In this document: piece by piece, positions 2,135-50,525 of the stretch
Numbering within the stretch: the first letter of the stretch is position 1
Layout of the letters: every line of letters starts with the position of its first letter
Assembly (NCBI GenBank): GCA_902786245.1
Contig: CADABS010000016.1
Span: 1-50,602, forward strand
Length of the DNA stretch: 50,602 nucleotides
Direction of reading: 5' to 3'
Origin: an uncultured Erysipelotrichaceae bacterium
GTDB lineage: Bacteria; Bacillota_I; Bacilli_A; Erysipelotrichales; Erysipelotrichaceae
The notes under the pieces: model-generated
Databases searched by the model: none
The model's input: only the letters and a program-made list of their open reading frames with translations
Told to the model about the DNA's origin: nothing
Made by a program: the position numbers and the translations under genes

Positions 2135-3100
2135 TCAATTCACCGCCTTTTTCAGGATTTCAAGATTGTTTTCCATGATCTGCAGATAGGTAATGCCCTG
2201 GTCGGCATCCTTCTGCGTCATGGACTGCAGAGAGTTCAGTTCGAGGATATTTATATCTTTTTGTACGGCTGTATTGATAATTGTATCCGCAAGTCTGCGG
2301 TCGGAGCTTTCCAGTACCAGGATGTTTTTCAGCTGCAGTTCATCGCATTTCTCCGCAAGGAACCGGATCGTTTCGAAACTGGCTTCTGCTTCTGCCGAGC
2401 ATCCGGCAAAAGCCGCATAATAGTCCAGACCGTAGTCTTCAATCATATAGCGGAAGGGGAATCTGTCCGCAAACAGCAGGGTATGCACGCTGCCGTTCTG
2501 AACGGTTTCCGCATAGGACGCATCCAGCTGCTGCAGCTGTCTGACATAATTTTCAAGGTTTTCTTTGAACAGGCTGCTTTCATCGGAAAGCAGAGAAGAA
2601 AGGGCCTCTTCGATTGCTTCGCAGCAGAGCTGTGCATTGCGCAGCGACAGCCATACATGTTCATCGAATTCCGTTTCTTCTTCATGTTCATGATCTTCTT
2701 CCTGCATGCCTTCTTTCATCTCTTCTTCTTTGAGATGGTCTTTGAGGACATCCATCAGATTGATCACGATCCTGTTTTCATTGGAAGACTGCCTTAAAGC
2801 ATCTTCGGTCCACTCATCCGATTCACCGCCTGTATAGATAAACAGATCGCATTCGCTGATTGCGGCGATATCCGAAGCAGAGGGCTGGAAGCTGTGCAGG
2901 TCGGAACCGCTGTTGAGCAGGAACCGTGTCTGTACCGGTGTGCCGGTATTCTCTGTAATTGCGGCGACCCAGTCGTTATAAGGAAACAATGTCGTAACGA
3001 TACGCAGAGATCCGGTATCTGTCTCTTCAGCCGGTTTCTGTGCGCATCCGGCAGAGACAGTCATAAAAACAAACAATAGGTATTTCAATATCTGTTTCAT
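2135..3100 (-). CDS. znuA: Zinc ABC transporter substrate-binding lipoprotein
   Basis: The 321-residue product is a cluster A-I metal-binding protein. I chose the ATG at 3100 (MKQILKYLL...) over upstream ATGs because AAAGGAAT lies about 8 bases before it and the signal peptide then has normal length, with the lipobox around SAGC. The mature part has the conserved 'TTLFPYNDWV', 'GSDLHSFQPSASD' and 'FDEHVWLS' segments with metal-ligand histidines. Between them lies an acidic, His-containing loop (EEDHEHEEE), a hallmark of zinc rather than manganese binding proteins. It captures zinc outside the membrane and delivers it to the permease. Confidence 0.9.
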   Translation of the reverse strand: MKQILKYLLFVFMTVSAGCAQKPAEETDTGSLRIVTTLFPYNDWVAAITENTGTPVQTRFLLNSGSDLHSFQPSASDIAAISECDLFIYTGGESDEWTEDALRQSSNENRIVINLMDVLKDHLKEEEMKEGMQEEDHEHEEETEFDEHVWLSLRNAQLCCEAIEEALSSLLSDESSLFKENLENYVRQLQQLDASYAETVQNGSVHTLLFADRFPFRYMIEDYGLDYYAAFAGCSAEAEASFETIRFLAEKCDELQLKNILVLESSDRRLADTIINTAVQKDINILELNSLQSMTQKDADQGITYLQIMENNLEILKKAVN

Positions 3101-3144
3101 TTCTTTATTCCTTTCCATTTTCAGATGCATATGAAAAATGGAAA

Positions 3145-42759: not shown

Positions 42760-42804
42760 GTCGGGATGACAGGATTTGAACCTGCGACCCCTTCGTCCCG
42801 AACG
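42760..42804 (-). repeat. Left attachment site: displaced 3' half of tRNA-Pro
   Basis: These 45 bases repeat exactly at 49011-49055 in direct orientation. They correspond to the tRNA from the anticodon loop to the discriminator base. To the right of 42804 similarity to the tRNA stops. Confidence 0.88.
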
Positions 42805-42900: not shown

Positions 42901-44286
42901 TTAACACAGAATGGTCTGTTTTAAGAGTTCTTTTTGCTCAGGAGACAAGTTCTTCAGCATGTTCAATAGGTTGCTGTCAGAAACGCTCTGAGAGCCTGTC
43001 TGAGGCGTTTCCTGAGGGGAAAACAATAACGTCAGTGTATCGCTTGCCTCTGCGTCTTTAGCCTCTAGAGCGTGCGCATAGCGGTTTAGAGTGGTGCTTG
43101 CGTCAGCGTGTCCCAGTCTGTGACTGACAGTCATAATGTCACAGCCTTGAGCAACGAGAAGGGACGCACAACAGTGCCTCAGGTCATGCAAGCGTATCAC
43201 AGGGAGTTTCTCTTCTTCGTTCTCGACACCTGCATTATACCTTCTCAGAATCTGCTCGAACTTATGGGAAGGTGTCTTTGTATCCATCCTCAATCCATTA
43301 TCCTGAATGAATATGAAGTTCGAATTGAACTCACCTCCTCTCAGTGCTTTCCACTGATCAGAATGAGACTGTTCTTCTTCCAGCGAGTGAAGTTTCCATA
43401 GCATGTCCATGCATTGCTGAGGCATGATAATGCAACGAATACCGCTTTTTGTTTTCGGTTCTTTCAGTACGTCTCCTGAGTGAGGAGTGTGTGCAATTGC
43501 TTTCGTTATTGAAATAGTGTTTTTCAGGAAGTTCACGTCATTCCATGTCAAGGCTAGCAGTTCGCCTCTCCTGAAGCCTCCAACGATTGACAGAGTGAAG
43601 TATACCTGAAACTGATATGGAACTGTGTGTGTCTCCCTGTACTCAGGTACTGTGTATTCAGTGCCGTTTGGATGCTTGCGTGTATGTGCCTTGTGAACTG
43701 ACTCATAAGGCTCTGACAGGAACTTCAGGAAGGTCTTGCTCTGCTCAAGGGAGAAGGTGTGAATACTCGTGTCCTTTTGCAGTCGGGGAAGTTCAATCCG
43801 ATCACAAGGGTTCTCTTTGATCAGGCACAGCCTGTAAGCGAAACGGAACACAGAGTTCATTGCGGTTAAGTGTCTCCGAACTGTCTTAGGTGCGTATGTT
43901 GTTTTCCATTCCTGAACAAGGCTCTGAACTTGCAGAGGTGTTATAGCAGTCAATTTCATGTGTCCGATTTTCGGGAGGATATGTCTTTGCAAGGTGTCCG
44001 AGTACTGTTCTTGCTGTCCCTGTGTGAGGTGATCACATGCCCAGTCTGTTTTCCATCTTTCGGTAAACTCAGCAAATGAGATAGATGAACCTGCGTATAC
44101 TTCTCCGTCTCTGACTTTCCGCTCGAACTCTTGAGCAAATGCCTGGACTTCTTTTTCCTGTGCTTTTGGAGTGGTTTTTGTAGGTCTGAATGTTTCGTTG
44201 TAGACAATCTGTTTTCCCTGATAGTCTCGTCCGCATGTGACTCTGATCAGGAAAGAACCGTTATTCCTTTTGATTATTCTTGCCAT
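42901..44286 (-). CDS. int: Tyrosine recombinase (phage-type integrase)
   Basis: A 461-residue integrase: N-terminal arm-binding domain (about 1-55, 'IIKRNNGSFLIRVTCGRDYQGK'), SAM-like core-binding domain (about 65-170) and catalytic domain with 'GGFRRGELLALTW' (first Arg), 'HDLRHCCASLL' (His, Arg), 'HRLGH' (His) and the nucleophile Tyr in 'TTLNRYAHAL'. A 55-residue Ser/Gln-rich tail follows the Tyr. It would join the element to tRNA-Pro. The start lies 26 bases inside the end of the repressor gene with GGGAGG upstream, so both are expressed together. Confidence 0.93.
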   Translation of the reverse strand: MARIIKRNNGSFLIRVTCGRDYQGKQIVYNETFRPTKTTPKAQEKEVQAFAQEFERKVRDGEVYAGSSISFAEFTERWKTDWACDHLTQGQQEQYSDTLQRHILPKIGHMKLTAITPLQVQSLVQEWKTTYAPKTVRRHLTAMNSVFRFAYRLCLIKENPCDRIELPRLQKDTSIHTFSLEQSKTFLKFLSEPYESVHKAHTRKHPNGTEYTVPEYRETHTVPYQFQVYFTLSIVGGFRRGELLALTWNDVNFLKNTISITKAIAHTPHSGDVLKEPKTKSGIRCIIMPQQCMDMLWKLHSLEEEQSHSDQWKALRGGEFNSNFIFIQDNGLRMDTKTPSHKFEQILRRYNAGVENEEEKLPVIRLHDLRHCCASLLVAQGCDIMTVSHRLGHADASTTLNRYAHALEAKDAEASDTLTLLFSPQETPQTGSQSVSDSNLLNMLKNLSPEQKELLKQTILC

Positions 44287-45022
44287 GAGTTAACGCCTCC
44301 CATTTCTTCAAATACTTGTCATTCTTTTTTATTGCCTCTTCGCTACGATCAATCATGTATGAGATTCCGTCCTTCTCGACCGTAGTTATTGAGTTCATGC
44401 ATGCGCTCACTTCATCCTCCATTTCCTTTTTCCGTTTGAAACAGAGATATTCGATATAGGAGATCACTTCGGATTGAAGGTCTTTCATGAAGAGGTAGTC
44501 AAACTCTGTGAGGTTGATTGTCTTTCCGTCTTCCCTTTTCCGCTGATACTCGTTCTGTTCATCACACTGGAATGCCTCAGCACTTTTAGGACGTACAAAT
44601 GAAACCTCTGTGAACAGACCTCCTGTTTTTCTGATCGGAGAATACACAGGGAAGTCCTGATCAGGAATAAACTCTTTCAGGAACTTCATGAACTCGTTAC
44701 TCAGTCCAATATCATTTGTGAACTTTTGGAATCGCATGTGCAGACTTTCTGTGAAGGCTTTGTCATACCTGTATTGGTCTTGCTTGTTTGATTGATACAG
44801 CATGTCTACGGTAACGCCGAGTTCCTCACAGATCGCATTTAAGTTATCTTCACTTGGCTTGTGTTTTGCGTTCAGGTAATCGGAGATAGACTTTCTATCC
44901 GCTATACCAACCTGCACTGCAAAGTCATCCTGTGTTCCCCCAGTCTCCGCTTGCCATCTCTTAAAATACATTCCGAAATTCTTTGCGAATACTTCATTCT
45001 GTGGTTTTCTTTCTTTTCCCAT
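44261..45022 (-). CDS. Master repressor with N-terminal XRE helix-turn-helix
   Basis: A 253-residue protein. Residues about 15-70 form an XRE-type HTH ('GGTQDDFAVQVGIADRKSISDYLNAKHKPSEDNLNAICEELGVT' region). The rest is a helical, Lys/Glu-rich domain without a peptidase Ser/Lys dyad, so it is not a LexA/CI self-cleaving repressor. In length, position and architecture it recalls Stl-type repressors of phage-inducible islands, which are released by binding a phage protein. Start 45022 is set by AGGAGG about 12 bases upstream; an ATG at 45103 is in frame but lacks a site. It faces the replication genes across a control region. Confidence 0.75.
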   Translation of the reverse strand: MGKERKPQNEVFAKNFGMYFKRWQAETGGTQDDFAVQVGIADRKSISDYLNAKHKPSEDNLNAICEELGVTVDMLYQSNKQDQYRYDKAFTESLHMRFQKFTNDIGLSNEFMKFLKEFIPDQDFPVYSPIRKTGGLFTEVSFVRPKSAEAFQCDEQNEYQRKREDGKTINLTEFDYLFMKDLQSEVISYIEYLCFKRKKEMEDEVSACMNSITTVEKDGISYMIDRSEEAIKKNDKYLKKWEALTHGKNNQKE

Positions 45023-45235: not shown

Positions 45236-45424
45236 ATGATTGAAATCAAAAACAGAATTATTCGGAAGGCACAGGAGGAGTGTCACCTGTACGGTTATCA
45301 GGTTGCGAGACTGCTGAATGTGTCTGAAGCGACATTCGGAAGAATGATGAGATTTGAACTTCCTGAAGAAGAACAGACACGCATTGCGAACCTGATCATG
45401 GAGGCATGCAATGAAAAGAAATGA
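45236..45424 (+). CDS. Small helix-turn-helix protein (Cro/excisionase-like)
   Basis: A 62-residue protein whose core 'YGYQVARLLNVSEATFGRMMR' is a helix-turn-helix, of the small type found in Firmicutes phages beside the repressor. It may act as antirepressor, Cro-like regulator or excisionase. Start 45236 follows CGGAGG; the ATG at 45197 is upstream of that site. Overlaps the next gene by 14 bases. Confidence 0.7.
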   Translation: MIEIKNRIIRKAQEECHLYGYQVARLLNVSEATFGRMMRFELPEEEQTRIANLIMEACNEKK

Positions 45425-45842
45425 AGAACTGTTTGAGCGGTTGCTGACCATTGTCCCTAAAGGACGTGAGAACGCTATTCCGCAGTGGTATCTTGCCTCT
45501 CTGCTCAATCTCAGTGTGCCTCAGGTGAAGTCTCTTCTCTGTCAGGCAAGAACTGAAGGCTATTTCATCGCAGGTGACCTTGAGGGTTATTACGTCCCTG
45601 TCACTCTGGACGAACTCCATTGTTATTATCGGTATATGTTTCAGGGTGCTATGACACGTCTCCGCAGTTTAGAGGCGTTCAGGAAGACTCTTAAGTCTTA
45701 CGGCATTAATAACCCTGAGAAGGACTTTCCTGAAGGAAAAGACAAGCATGTTGAAGTACCTTCAAAGAACGTCCGTCACGATGAGTCAAAAAGGTTTCAG
45801 CAGACATGCTTTGTGTTCTTCTTTGACGATTTGGAGGAGTAA
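45411..45842 (+). CDS. Winged-helix-like phage protein of unknown role
   Basis: A 143-residue protein. The first 75 residues ('ENAIPQWYLASLLNLSVPQVKSLLCQARTEGYFIAG') read like a winged helix that recognises DNA, followed by a helical middle and an acidic end. It lies between the small HTH gene (14-base overlap) and the primase (stop and start share the base pair TAATG at 45840-45844), so it belongs to the replication operon. Possibly a replication initiator or regulator; not identified. Confidence 0.65.
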   Translation: MKRNEELFERLLTIVPKGRENAIPQWYLASLLNLSVPQVKSLLCQARTEGYFIAGDLEGYYVPVTLDELHCYYRYMFQGAMTRLRSLEAFRKTLKSYGINNPEKDFPEGKDKHVEVPSKNVRHDESKRFQQTCFVFFFDDLEE

Positions 45843-46753
45843 TGAAATACACACGTTTCATTCCTGAGTTCTTCAGGGAACGTGTGCTGTGGTGTGTATG
45901 GAGGCTCGAACTGGGCAAGAACGGAAGACAGACAAAAGTCCCGTACTGTGCTAACAGATCAGGGAGAGCCTCCAGTACCTCACCTGATACATGGTCAACC
46001 TATGAAGACGCACTCAGAGCCTTCAGGAGGGACAAGTATAACGGTCTTGGAATTGTCTTCAGTGAGTCCCTGAACTGCGTATTCGTTGACGTTGATCATT
46101 GCATAGACCCTGACACAGGAGAAATAGACGAGAGAGGCACATACATGCTCAACATGTTTCCTGACACGTACTGTGAACTCTCTCAGTCATTGACAGGACT
46201 TCATTTCTTTGTAAAAGGCACTATTCCTAAAGGCTTCAAGAACTCAAAGGTGAACATTGAAATGTACTACACAGGACGGTACTGTGCCTTCACTGGGTAT
46301 GCATTACAGCCTTGTGAGCCTTCGGAAAATCAGGAGGGACTGACTGCTGTATACGAGAGGTTTAAGACTCCTGAGCCTGTCAGAATCACAAACGATCAGA
46401 TTGTAAAGCCTGTACTCTCGTCCGATCAGGACATATTGCAGAGACTTATGAAGAACACAAAAGCGAGGGACTTATTCAATGGGAAATGGAAAGACTATTT
46501 CTCCTCCCAGTCTGAGGCTGACTTGTCGCTCTGTGAGACGTTGGCATTTTGGTGTGAACGTGATCAGGACACTATTGACCGTATCTTCAGGTGTTCCGCA
46601 CTGTATCGTGCGAAATGGGACGAGAAACACGGAGAGCAGACCTATGGAGGCATGACAGTTCAGAAGGCGTGCGCATATGTGTCTGACACCTATTCAGAAT
46701 GGAGGAAAAAAAGAAATGCTGAAGTTATCATGTGCATTCTGTCCGAATGGTGA
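45842..46753 (+). CDS. Primase-polymerase-like replication protein
   Basis: A 303-residue protein resembling the N-terminal half of phage NrS-1-type primase-polymerases: 'VLWCVWRLELGKNGRQTKVPYCANRSG', 'WSTYEDALRAFRRDKYNGLGIVFSESLNCVFVDVDHC' (where the VDVDH pair of Asp is the metal site), 'TGLHFFVKG' and 'IEMYYTGRYCAFTG'. The C-terminal third matches the helical domain that links to the helicase. It should prime DNA synthesis of the element. In many relatives primase and helicase are one protein; here they are split with a 38-base overlap. Confidence 0.8.
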   Translation: MKYTRFIPEFFRERVLWCVWRLELGKNGRQTKVPYCANRSGRASSTSPDTWSTYEDALRAFRRDKYNGLGIVFSESLNCVFVDVDHCIDPDTGEIDERGTYMLNMFPDTYCELSQSLTGLHFFVKGTIPKGFKNSKVNIEMYYTGRYCAFTGYALQPCEPSENQEGLTAVYERFKTPEPVRITNDQIVKPVLSSDQDILQRLMKNTKARDLFNGKWKDYFSSQSEADLSLCETLAFWCERDQDTIDRIFRCSALYRAKWDEKHGEQTYGGMTVQKACAYVSDTYSEWRKKRNAEVIMCILSEW

Positions 46754-48191
46754 AATCCTTGAGAAGTTAAAGGAACTCGACCCACTTCATAATCCGCTGT
46801 ATCAGATTCAGGACGAGATCACTTTCGGAAGACTGTTTGGTGACACCTTCAGGAGTGTCCTGAAGTTCAATGTCACAGCGAAAGCATGGTACGCCTATGA
46901 CGGTATAAAGTGGACTGAGGACACAGGAAGTGTCATTGTGGGGAGGCTTGCGGAGACATTCGCACGAATGCTGAAGGTATATCTTGCCGAGACTGTACAG
47001 GGGGATGAGACACAGTTTGAGTCAGCATATCAGAAGTTTGCTTTGAGACTGGGAGACAGGAACAAACGCCTGAAAATGATTGAAGACTCCAAGAACCATA
47101 CGAACGTAAAAATGGAGGACTTTGACAGAGACGGTTATCTCCTGAACCTTCAGAATGGTGTGCTGAACCTGAACACATTCGAGTTTCTTGAGCATGACAG
47201 TGAAATGCTACTTTCTAAAGTGTGTAGTTGCTCGTTCAAGCCTGAAGCGGATTCAGGGGAATGGGAGACGTTTATCTCTCAGGTACTTGAGAACGATCAG
47301 GAGAAGATTGCGTATATACAGCGTTTGTTTGGATACGCTCTGACCGCTGACAATTCAAGAGAGGAGTGCTATCTGTTCTATGGTTCAACCACTCGAAACG
47401 GCAAGTCAACCACTCTCAGAGTCATGGAAACGATGTTAGGGAGTTACGCCATGAGCATTAAACCTGAGTCCCTGACGCAGAGGAAGACTGACGGAAGAAC
47501 GGCTTCAGGAGACATTGCAAGGCTCAAGGGTTGCAGGTTTCTGCACTGCTCAGAGCCTCAAAAGGGAATGGTGTTAGACGTTGCCATGCTCAAGAATTTG
47601 ACAGGGAGAGACATTATCACAGCAAGGAATCTCTATGAGAGGGAGTTTGAGTTCATGCCTGTGTTCAAACTGTTCTTCAATTCCAATTGCCGACCATTAG
47701 TGAATGACATGACTCTGTTCTCTTCAGGGAGAATAAAGGTTATTGAGTTCAACAGGCATTTCTCAGAACAGGAACAGGACACACACCTGAAGGAAAGACT
47801 TGAGTCACAGGAGAACCTGTCCGCATTGCTGAATTGGTGTCTCACAGGACTCAGGGAGTTCAGATCACACGAGACTGCTGTCCCTCAGTCTGTCAAGCAA
47901 GCGACAGAGGTTTATAAACGAGAGTCTGACAAGGTGCAGAACTTCATTGACGAGTGTATTTGTGTCAGTGCTGTCTCAACCAATCTTCCTGTGAAGGTGT
48001 GCTATGAAGCCTTCAGGAAGTGGTGCGCTTCAAACGGTTACAAGGCTGAAGGAAAGAAGAACTTCAAAGAGGTTCTCTCAGGAAAGATTCCGATCAGTGA
48101 GACAGGGACGGTTAACGGAGTCACAGTTCACAATGTCCTGACTGGGTACACACTCACTGAAGACGGAAAAGAGTTTGCTTATGGGTACTAA
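46716..48191 (+). CDS. SF3 helicase (phage/plasmid primase P4-type C-terminal domain)
   Basis: A 491-residue protein with a D5_N-like N-terminal region and an SF3 ATPase: Walker A 'YGSTTRNGKSTTLR', Walker B-region 'CRFLHCSEPQKG', sensor 'KLFFNSNCRPLVNDMTLFSSGRIKVIEF' and a C-terminal winged helix that binds origins. It resembles the Rep helicase of satellites such as P4 and SaPIs. Start 46716 follows GGAGG; earlier in-frame ATG (46677) lacks a site. The candidate origin begins right behind its stop. Confidence 0.87.
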   Translation: MLKLSCAFCPNGEILEKLKELDPLHNPLYQIQDEITFGRLFGDTFRSVLKFNVTAKAWYAYDGIKWTEDTGSVIVGRLAETFARMLKVYLAETVQGDETQFESAYQKFALRLGDRNKRLKMIEDSKNHTNVKMEDFDRDGYLLNLQNGVLNLNTFEFLEHDSEMLLSKVCSCSFKPEADSGEWETFISQVLENDQEKIAYIQRLFGYALTADNSREECYLFYGSTTRNGKSTTLRVMETMLGSYAMSIKPESLTQRKTDGRTASGDIARLKGCRFLHCSEPQKGMVLDVAMLKNLTGRDIITARNLYEREFEFMPVFKLFFNSNCRPLVNDMTLFSSGRIKVIEFNRHFSEQEQDTHLKERLESQENLSALLNWCLTGLREFRSHETAVPQSVKQATEVYKRESDKVQNFIDECICVSAVSTNLPVKVCYEAFRKWCASNGYKAEGKKNFKEVLSGKIPISETGTVNGVTVHNVLTGYTLTEDGKEFAYGY

Positions 48192-48276
48192 TGTGCAGAA
48201 TGTGCATTTTCTATGTAAAGTCTCTACGTGAGAAAGAACTTAGAAAAGTTTACATAATATTTGCACAAATTGCACA
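48192..48276. other. Candidate replication origin: 85-bp dyad with paired iterons around an AT-rich core
   Basis: Two TGTGCA hexamers 9 bases apart (48192, 48201) and two TGCACA hexamers 9 bases apart (48262, 48271) are mirror images about position 48234. Inside them TATGTAAA (48212-48219) and TTTACATA (48249-48256) share the same centre. The 55-base core is AT-rich. The position immediately after the helicase gene matches where SaPI origins lie (iteron sets flanking an AT-rich region). No T-run follows; a G-rich stretch (48277-48291) does. Confidence 0.55.
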
Positions 48277-48364
48277 GGGGGGAGGGGGAGGCTGTGGATA
48301 TGCCTCTCCGAACCTCTGCTGTGACTCTGAAAAAATCTCGCAGAAAACTGGAGGGAATTGTGAT

Positions 48365-48721
48365 ATGACAAACGGACAAAAAAAGGGACGGAACGGAGAA
48401 ACCGAACTGTGTTCCATCCTGAATCAAAAAGGTTTCAGTGTACGGACTGGACGAGCGTTGAACTTCGGAACAGAGCCTGACCTGATCGGACTTCCTCAGG
48501 TTCATATTGAATGTAAGAGGTGCGAAACTCTACGTGTGTATGAGTGGATGCAACAGGCAACGAGAGATTCTCAGCGATTCAATGATGGTGTGCCTTGCGT
48601 GTTCTTTCGGAAGAACCGTCAGGAGTGGTTAGTCTGTATGAGGCTGACGGACTGGGTAGAACTCTACAAGGACTCCCCCTTATTCAGATTGAATAGGCAC
48701 TGTCATGAAACCGATGGATGA
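48365..48721 (+). CDS. Small PDDEXK-type nuclease (Holliday-junction-resolvase-like)
   Basis: A 118-residue protein beginning 'KKGRNGETELCSILNQKGFSVRTGRALNFG' and continuing 'EPDLIGLPQVHIECKRCE', i.e. Glu, Asp and ExK spaced as in the PD-(D/E)XK nuclease fold; a mid-helix 'YEWMQQATRDS' and 'VPCVFFRKN' complete the core. Similar small proteins in Firmicutes phages are labelled resolvase or VRR-NUC-like. It may resolve replication intermediates of the element. GGAGGG stands before the start at 48365; the longer frame from 48191 runs through the candidate origin and is rejected. Confidence 0.75.
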   Translation: MTNGQKKGRNGETELCSILNQKGFSVRTGRALNFGTEPDLIGLPQVHIECKRCETLRVYEWMQQATRDSQRFNDGVPCVFFRKNRQEWLVCMRLTDWVELYKDSPLFRLNRHCHETDG

Positions 48722-49003: not shown

Positions 49004-49010
49004 CTTGTAG

Positions 49011-49055
49011 GTCGGGATGACAGGATTTGAACCTGCGACCCCTTCGTCCCGAACG
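49011..49055 (-). repeat. Right attachment site within intact tRNA-Pro
   Basis: Exact direct repeat of 42760-42804, covering the tRNA from discriminator base to anticodon loop. Confidence 0.88.
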
Positions 49056-49085
49056 AAGTGCTCTACCAAGCTGAGCCACATCCCG
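49012..49085 (-). tRNA. tRNA-Pro(CGG)
   Basis: A complete 74-base cloverleaf on the minus strand: acceptor CGGGATG/CATCCCG with discriminator A, D arm GCTC/GAGC, anticodon stem CTTCG/CGAAG around loop TTCGGGA (anticodon CGG, codon CCG), T arm GCAGG-TTCAAAT-CCTGT. CCA is not encoded. It serves as integration site of the element on its 3' side. CCG is the main Pro codon in the surrounding host genes. Confidence 0.95.
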
Positions 49086-49430: not shown

Positions 49431-50513
49431 GTGTGCCGGGCATGGCACATCTCCAGCTGGTGAAAGTCCAGCCACAGGTATTTACCGCCAAGTGTAGTGA
49501 ACCCCAAGTCGAAAACAGGAATGTTGTCGGGAGGCTGTGGAAGAAAGAAGGAGATGTGAATTACCCCGGGAGGTCCTGCGGACGGTTAAGTCCAGACACT
49601 TTCAAACAGATATGGTAAAGCCGGTTGAAAAAGATTTACCGCAGGAAGTCAGCTGAGGTCGTAGTAGGTATCAAGCCTTGGATACTGAAGGACCTAATGT
49701 TTGTATAGTGCGAATCACTATGCGCAAGATTCAGACAGTCCGAATAAGAAGATAGCCTGTAGGCAGAGAAACGTAATCTCTGACGGCGAAAAAAAATTGA
49801 GATGATTCTGAATACTTTACAAGTAGAGGGAGGAGCAGCGAATGGAATTGATTGAGAAGATTCTGAGTGAGGAAAACTTCAACGAGGCAATTAAACGGGT
49901 CAAGAGTAATAAAGGCGCACCGGGAGTCGACAAGATGACGGTGAATGAAATTGACGAATATTTCGATGAACATAAAGGGGACATAAAGAAATCCATTATG
50001 GAAATGGAATACAAGCCTCAGCCGGTAAGAAGGGTCTATATACCCAAACCCAACGGAAAGAAAAGACCGCTCGGCATTCCGACAGTAGCGGACAGAGTGG
50101 TACAGCAGATGGTCGCACAGGAGTTGAACCGAATATATGAACCCACATACAGCGAACATAGTTACGGGTTCAGAACAGGAAGAGACTGCCATGACGCAAT
50201 CGGAGAAGTACTGCAGTATCTGAACGAAGGATATGAATGGGTAATAGATCTGGATATCGAGAAGTATTTCGACACAGTGAATCATGACAAATTGATTTCA
50301 ATACTCAGAGAGAAAGTCAATGACAGAACGACACTGCATCTGATCCGGTCATTTCTCAGAGCAGGAATCATGGAGAACGGACTTGTATCGTCTTCAACAG
50401 TCGGCGTACCTCAAGGAGGTCCGCTGTCTCCGGAACTCTCAAACATATATTTGGATAAGTTTGATAAAGAACTGGAGAGCAGAGGGCTGAGATTTGTGAG
50501 ATATGCGGATTAT
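49431..50513 (+). mobile_element. Group II intron, 3' truncated in this window
   Basis: The 5' end reads GTGTGCCGGGCATGGCAC, and soon after GGTGAAAGTCC, typical of bacterial group II intron domain I. About 410 bases of structured, non-coding intron RNA precede the reverse-transcriptase gene. Insertion just behind a terminator hairpin is the habit of class C introns. The sequence leaves the family at about 50514, inside the RT gene, so the catalytic domains V and VI are missing here. Confidence 0.85.
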
Positions 50514-50525
50514 GCCGAAGTTTAA
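49842..50525 (+). pseudogene. Group II intron reverse transcriptase/maturase, truncated
   Basis: The 227-residue frame covers RT domains 0-5: 'VKSNKGAPGVDKMTV', 'RRVYIPKPNGKKRPLGIPTVADRVVQQ', 'SYGFRTGRDCHDAI', 'WVIDLDIEKYFDTVNH' and 'GVPQGGPLSPELSNIYLD'. It then reads 'RFVRYADY', where RYADD is required: the second catalytic Asp of the YADD box and everything after (RT thumb, maturase X domain) are lost, and it stops at 50523-50525. GGGAGGAG precedes the start. Full-length relatives are above 400 residues, so this copy is dead or interrupted by another insertion at about 50514. Confidence 0.88.

Follow-up and report, generated by a model that had tools for sequence, protein, structure and literature searches.

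The 85 nucleotides at 48192-48276, the first of them directly after the stop codon (TAA, 48189-48191) of a D5-type helicase gene, are very probably the origin of replication of a small PICI-like integrative element. They form a dyad of direct repeats (iterons) and core blocks mirrored over an AT-rich centre, and comparison with related loci shows that the dyad is conserved as a cis element linked to the helicase and that its iterons covary. That the helicase would bind the dyad, melt it and initiate replication there is suggested by the precedents of SaPIs, SCCmec Cch2 and phages. The element lies in the stretch of DNA analysed here, 50,602 nucleotides of a contig from an uncultured Erysipelotrichaceae bacterium (the window), and its features are collected in Table 1.

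The dyad and the element around it

The earlier note, made from the window alone, had described three nested pairs of words behind the helicase gene with a common centre at base 48234, a 9-base period within both hexamer pairs and an AT-rich interior. All of this holds: the six words are present at their exact positions, all three pairs centre on 48234.0, the period is exact, and the dyad begins immediately after the stop codon. The 55 enclosed bases are 74.5% A+T, compared with 55% across the element and 50% across the window, and only 0.06% of the 55-base windows in the element are equally AT-rich. The exact four-copy arrangement (a word, the same word at distance d, then two reverse-complement copies with the same d) is found a single time in the 50.6-kb window and in none of 5000 dinucleotide-preserving shuffles of a 360-nt segment, which excludes a dyad produced by chance.

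Table 1. Features of the integrative element and of the dyad (window coordinates)
Feature	Position	Strand	Evidence or remark
att direct repeat, 45 bp, copy of tRNA-Pro 3' end	42760..42804	.
Tyrosine integrase	42901..44286	-	PF00589, E 1.5e-21
cI-like HTH repressor, divergent from replication genes	44261..45013	-	Family profile matches
Small HTH protein, excisionase- or Cro-like	45236..45424	+	Weak match
Small phrog_2113 protein, function not assigned	45411..45842	+	phrog match
NrS-1-type primase-polymerase with helicase-binding domain	45842..46753	+	PF22763, E 7.5e-28; 7ola, E 5e-39; other primase structures
D5/SF3-type replicative helicase with C-terminal winged helix; presumed origin-binding initiator	46677..48191	+	Pfam D5_N, Pox_D5, DUF5906; PDB 7ola (SaPI5 primase-helicase); AlphaFold2 model, pLDDT 87.5
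Codons for predicted wing motif GTVNGVTVHN, helicase residues 477-486	48105..48134	+	Motif common to TGTGCA-iteron helicases
Outer iteron, left arm, TGTGCA	48192..48197	+	Sequence; outer word TGTGCA on both arms in nearly all 15 non-redundant TGTGCA-type dyads
Inner iteron, left arm, TGTGCA, 9-bp period	48201..48206	+	Sequence; covaries with mirror copy in relatives
AT-rich segment between iteron pairs, presumed melting region	48207..48261	.	74.5% A+T
Core block, left arm, TATGTAAA	48212..48219	+	Family consensus ATGTRA; mirror-constrained
Core block, right arm, TTTACATA	48249..48256	-	Mirror-constrained, as left arm
Inner iteron, right arm, TGCACA	48262..48267	-	Sequence
Outer iteron, right arm, TGCACA	48271..48276	-	Sequence
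PDDEXK_15 / Holliday-junction-resolvase-like nuclease	48365..48721	+	Profile matches; missing from G044 sister element
att direct repeat, 45 bp, inside tRNA-Pro(cgg) 49010-49085	49011..49055	.

About 6.25 kb long, the element is bounded on each side by a 45-bp copy of the tRNA-Pro 3' end. Its integrase and cI-like repressor are read leftward, and rightward follow the small HTH protein, the phrog_2113 protein, primase, helicase, dyad and nuclease. This is the layout of a PICI, with int and a cI-like repressor in one direction, xis (a weak assignment), pri, rep and ori in the other, and a specific att site. A sister element (G044) has the same gene order, tRNA-Pro site and dyad, without the nuclease. 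No terS, capsid-remodelling or interference genes were seen in the element, the nuclease being the only gene between the origin and attR; it resembles a minimal PICI-like integrative element, and since packaging and interference genes are not visible we do not file it as a PICI. After the TGTGCA dyad of a relative, L035, there is a gene like that of a terminase small subunit (phrog_606, E 5e-5; L035 917-1426), placed as in PICIs, which ties this type of origin to satellites with packaging genes.

Two further observations concern the neighbourhood. The phrog_2113 match before the primase recurs in another element (G053), and the sister element has an ORF of the same size at that place; the protein may belong to the replication module. 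Window 49433-50525, just outside attR, carries RNA domains of a group II intron (Rfam RF01998) together with the 5' portion of a reverse transcriptase, which is truncated or interrupted, as its frame closes at 50525, not far from the end of the contig.

Might the dyad simply be coding sequence, an N-terminal extension of the nuclease? A stop-free frame (48191-48721) does run through it from an ATG that overlaps the helicase stop codon. But the nuclease possesses a start codon of its own, the ATG at 48365, with a good Shine-Dalgarno sequence (GGAGG) in front of it; family profiles match only after that ATG, and relatives retain the dyad where they have no nuclease, so that the probability of this reading is negligible.

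The location of the dyad at an operon boundary might instead suggest that a transcription terminator or other RNA structure closes the helicase operon here, and its 85 nt do fold better than all 200 shuffles of the sequence, both as RNA (z -4.66) and as single-stranded DNA (z -3.95). Yet no T-run follows the dyad, no terminator-like site overlaps it, and no Rfam family matches it; the Rfam search gave tRNA and group II intron matches only, plus noise. The sister element has a separate hairpin with a T-run after its dyad (L003, about 3095-3121), and the iterons change as repeated words, something a terminator would not need. We consider a terminator very improbable.

Linkage of the dyad to the helicase gene

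The dyad was sought elsewhere as a strict DNA pattern, TGTGCA-N3-TGTGCA-N(42-70)-TGCACA-N3-TGCACA, with the reversed pattern as control. Three of 316 genomes of the order carry it, and in all three it lies directly behind the gene of a helicase homologue (100% identity for the window's own, 63% and 38% for the other two, both from the same genus), while the reversed four-hexamer pattern occurs in none of the 316. A class-wide scan of 395 genomes for the exact pattern returned the window's own genome alone, from which we conclude that the TGTGCA iteron word is rare in bacterial genomes. The strict pattern is present in 18 IMG/VR contigs, and in 13 of these a helicase relative ends no more than about 62 nt away from it; these relatives were identified independently by phmmer, two of the 13 by weak matches (132 and 92 bits). 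On the stretches examined of the other five (L025, L030, L031, L040 and L042), the TGTGCA dyad is accompanied by no recognisable helicase relative.

Approaching the same question from the protein required a profile. Scans of IMG/VR and GTDB contigs with a single helicase sequence gave none or one distant relative, whereas the DNA pattern and a profile succeeded. A profile of ten helicases retrieved 80 viral loci. Of the 71 distinct helicase ORFs surveyed, with repeat periods of 6-13 allowed, 29 are followed by direct repeats in an exact mirrored pair, as against 7 of 592 other ORF ends. Even these seven point back to the helicase: three come from antisense frames that terminate at the same origins, and the other four from helicase loci with a dyad of the same geometry one gene further downstream. 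The period is 9 bp in 27 of the 29 dyads. What varies is the word. At least 13 different iteron words stand behind helicases in the survey (TGTGCA, AGGTAA, GTGTGC, GGGGCA, GGTTAC, GGTGAA, AGTGAA, GGTAGT, GGGTAG, AGTAGG, AGTAGA, GGTAGA, GTAGAG and GGTAGG), and additional bacterial genomes contribute TGTAGC, GGGGCA/TGTGGCA and ATGAAT. Across all these words the architecture is constant: two direct repeats with a 9-bp period, mirrored over an AT-rich core, directly 3' of the helicase. The earlier note had looked to an alignment behind homologous helicases for conserved spacing and covarying iterons, and both are seen, the words covarying on the two arms while position, period and mirrored layout are kept. 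Since the identity of the iterons within dyads found by exact match is true by construction, it was not counted; what counts is helicase adjacency, the control rates, the mirrored variants and the core.

Roughly half of the helicases surveyed have no exact dyad directly 3', and some of these have imperfect or displaced ones. A relative of 37% identity (L005/L016) has none directly behind its helicase and a GCAACA-type dyad about 450 nt further on. In L105, L111, L121 and L133, mirrored iteron dyads of the same geometry follow one gene further on, about 0.4-2.2 kb past the helicase. On the Bacillus badius plasmid pPM400 (L046, 5411-5498), unannotated mirrored TGTAGCA iterons directly follow a gene labelled 'P4 family primase'; this dyad is the probable origin of a phage-like segment on the plasmid.

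The linkage also bears on the idea that the dyad serves some other protein of the element (a repressor, excisionase or nuclease), or functions in recombination or packaging. HTH proteins typically have mirrored repeats as their sites, and in the element the nuclease gene comes next after the dyad. The dyad, however, stays with the helicase while the neighbours change (the nuclease is missing in G044, and different genes follow elsewhere), and the iteron word tracks the helicase C-terminal domain, as described below. We regard such a site as improbable.

Mirror constraint and the iteron word

If the dyad acted as one long cruciform or stem-loop, the hairpin itself being recognised by the replication protein as in pRN1, then all of its paired positions should be under constraint. 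The 100-nt stem-loop behind the pRN1 replication gene is essential, and restoring the symmetry of the stem restored replication (PMC4234260). The good folding of the 85 nt as single-stranded DNA and the covariation of the inner iteron with its mirror copy, with outer copies constant in relatives, would also be expected of a hairpin. The arms of the dyads were compared by permutation, within one dyad versus between dyads.

Among 19 dyads of the 80-86-nt class, the iterons are more alike between the arms of their own dyad than in any of 5000 permutations (near-identical dyads were removed and kinship was ignored, here and in the tests that follow), and so is a third block with the consensus ATGTRA, located 20-28 nt from the outer end; both spacers and the innermost bases exhibit no such likeness. 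The 15 non-redundant TGTGCA dyads give the same picture. Arm likeness in the core is 0.74 within dyads and 0.56 when permuted (6/20000 permutations), and the inner iteron is similarly constrained (16/20000), a signal due to variants mirrored on both arms: TATGCA in L056, TGTGTA in L058 and TGTTCA in L059. The outer iteron deviates only once, in a right arm that reads TATGCA. Neither spacer is mirror-constrained in these 15 dyads, the first with 0.47 within and 0.56 permuted (19448/20000), the second with 0.39 and 0.41 (13707/20000).

A continuous hairpin would pair the spacers too. Because they are unconstrained and the core is constrained, discrete mirrored protein sites fit better, and the long cruciform, which the earlier note had offered as an alternative or additional role, is disfavoured. 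We consider it unlikely, with a small but real chance of being right. Pairing may nonetheless play a partial role, given that the spacers are weakly associated (308/20000 permutations) in a second class of origins, 104-108 nt long. Within that class (L075-L078, L083, L085, L101, L108 and L117) the iterons are variable and the inner core is conserved (TTTTGCTATAACTT-like); several of its members also contain TATATACGCGCGTATATA, a central palindrome that is nearly perfect. A bias toward A/T tracts on the same strand beside the inner iterons (76/5000 permutations) was dropped, as by eye it did not carry over to the second class.

If the sites are discrete and protein-bound, then one might look to the helicase for what reads them. 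All helicases with TGTGCA origins in the set carry [GA]T[VI]xxxTxxN[VI] near the C-terminus. According to the AlphaFold2 model (pLDDT 87.5), the corresponding residues, 477-486, span the turn of a beta-hairpin (473-479/482-489) that follows a recognition-type helix (460-470), and so the model identifies them as the wing of a winged helix. Other words appear to go with other wings: GKINGVAYKN with AGGTAA, and RPxxGGxKTT with GGGGCA/TGTGGCA/TGTAGCA-like iterons. Three loci are instructive. A core-region tree nests the helicase of L055 among TGTGCA helicases, with local supports of 0.85 and 0.94, but at the wing position this helicase has GKINGVAYKN, and its origin has four AGGTAA iterons while retaining an ATGTAAA core. 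Conversely, the core of the L067 helicase groups with another helicase class and its C-terminal domain with the TGTGCA group (in a C-terminal tree that is short and in places poorly supported), and its iterons are TGTGCA. In L074, which the exact search missed, the motif is present and outer TGTGCA copies lie in an 83-nt dyad. That the iteron word tracks the C-terminal domain of the helicase is, on these comparisons, a lead and not proof. Perhaps there is an origin code in the D5-type helicases of phages and satellites, in which the tip of the wing would select the iteron word, wing and origin would switch together while the core block stays constant, and three mirrored protein sites per arm, with no cruciform, would start initiation; we put this forward tentatively, as a possibility somewhat short of an even one.

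Known origins and a possible course of initiation

Origins of PICIs are described as located immediately 3' of rep, the initiator gene, with an AT-rich region enclosed by two sets of iterons (PMC6092414). The dyad has the same position and layout, with opposite iteron sets around an AT-rich region immediately 3' of the initiator gene. The comparison with SaPIs, drawn in the earlier note, is strengthened by the proteins: the SaPI5 primase-helicase structure, 7ola, matches both the primase (5e-39) and the helicase (6.5e-19), with 1.1e-17 by Foldseek. Like the SaPI5 Pri-Rep, the element combines a D5-type helicase initiator, here with a predicted C-terminal DNA-binding domain, and an NrS-1-like primase. 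It differs in that primase and helicase are separate genes, that the dyad has only two iterons per arm and 85 bp in all, and that no terS or capsid genes were seen. A literature search did not find TGTGCA as an iteron word.

Phages offer precedents in the same place. The rep_origin of Lactobacillus phage A2 and the 'origin of replication ... phage inhibitory sequence' of Streptococcus phage Sfi21 are annotated immediately behind the homologous primase/helicase gene, and both have oppositely oriented iterons around an AT-rich core; they differ in their annotated length (about 300 to 510 bp), in having more repeats, and in their words (ACGGGAGGAT-like, GTTAC-like). Given these and other phage origins, the mirrored-iteron layout appears to be wider than PICIs. 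The Cch2 protein of SCCmec is likewise a D5-type helicase. Through its C-terminal domain it binds DNA just downstream of its own gene, and this binding requires the direct repeats (PMC7581432). The putative origin there has the same location relative to a related gene, but its iterons are AAGTG in three copies. The pRN1 plasmid also has a symmetric element of about 100 nt 3' of a gene for primase, SF3 helicase and winged helix. That element, however, is described as a continuous stem whose sequence is not conserved (PMC4234260), while the dyad consists of conserved iteron blocks and unpaired spacers: in the TGTGCA family only iterons and core are mirror-constrained, and no continuous stem kept by compensatory changes was found. 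This kind of origin is already known from phages and pathogenicity islands, and the present dyad adds a member. The earlier note's suggestion of a probable origin is well supported as a prediction by helicase-linked conservation, covarying iterons, and phage and PICI precedents in the same place.

How might such an origin work? Most likely, the element's own D5/SF3 helicase would read TGTGCA on duplex DNA with its C-terminal winged helix. With two copies per arm, 9 bp apart, and the arms facing in opposite directions, two helicase assemblies could be loaded, one on each side. The AT-rich 55 bp between the arms, with the mirrored core block TATGTAAA/TTTACATA, would then be melted, and the primase-polymerase encoded just upstream, which carries a helicase-binding domain, would prime both strands.

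If so, primase, helicase and an 85-bp origin would make up a compact replicon of <2.5 kb. More widely, the survey shows that probable origins across a large family of phages and satellites can be found from the helicase gene alone. Since iteron word and helicase C-terminal domain change together, the specificity of the origin should be testable by domain swaps. The prediction of such origins may also be of practical use, because they can act as phage decoys, as the phage inhibitory sequence in the Sfi21 record indicates.
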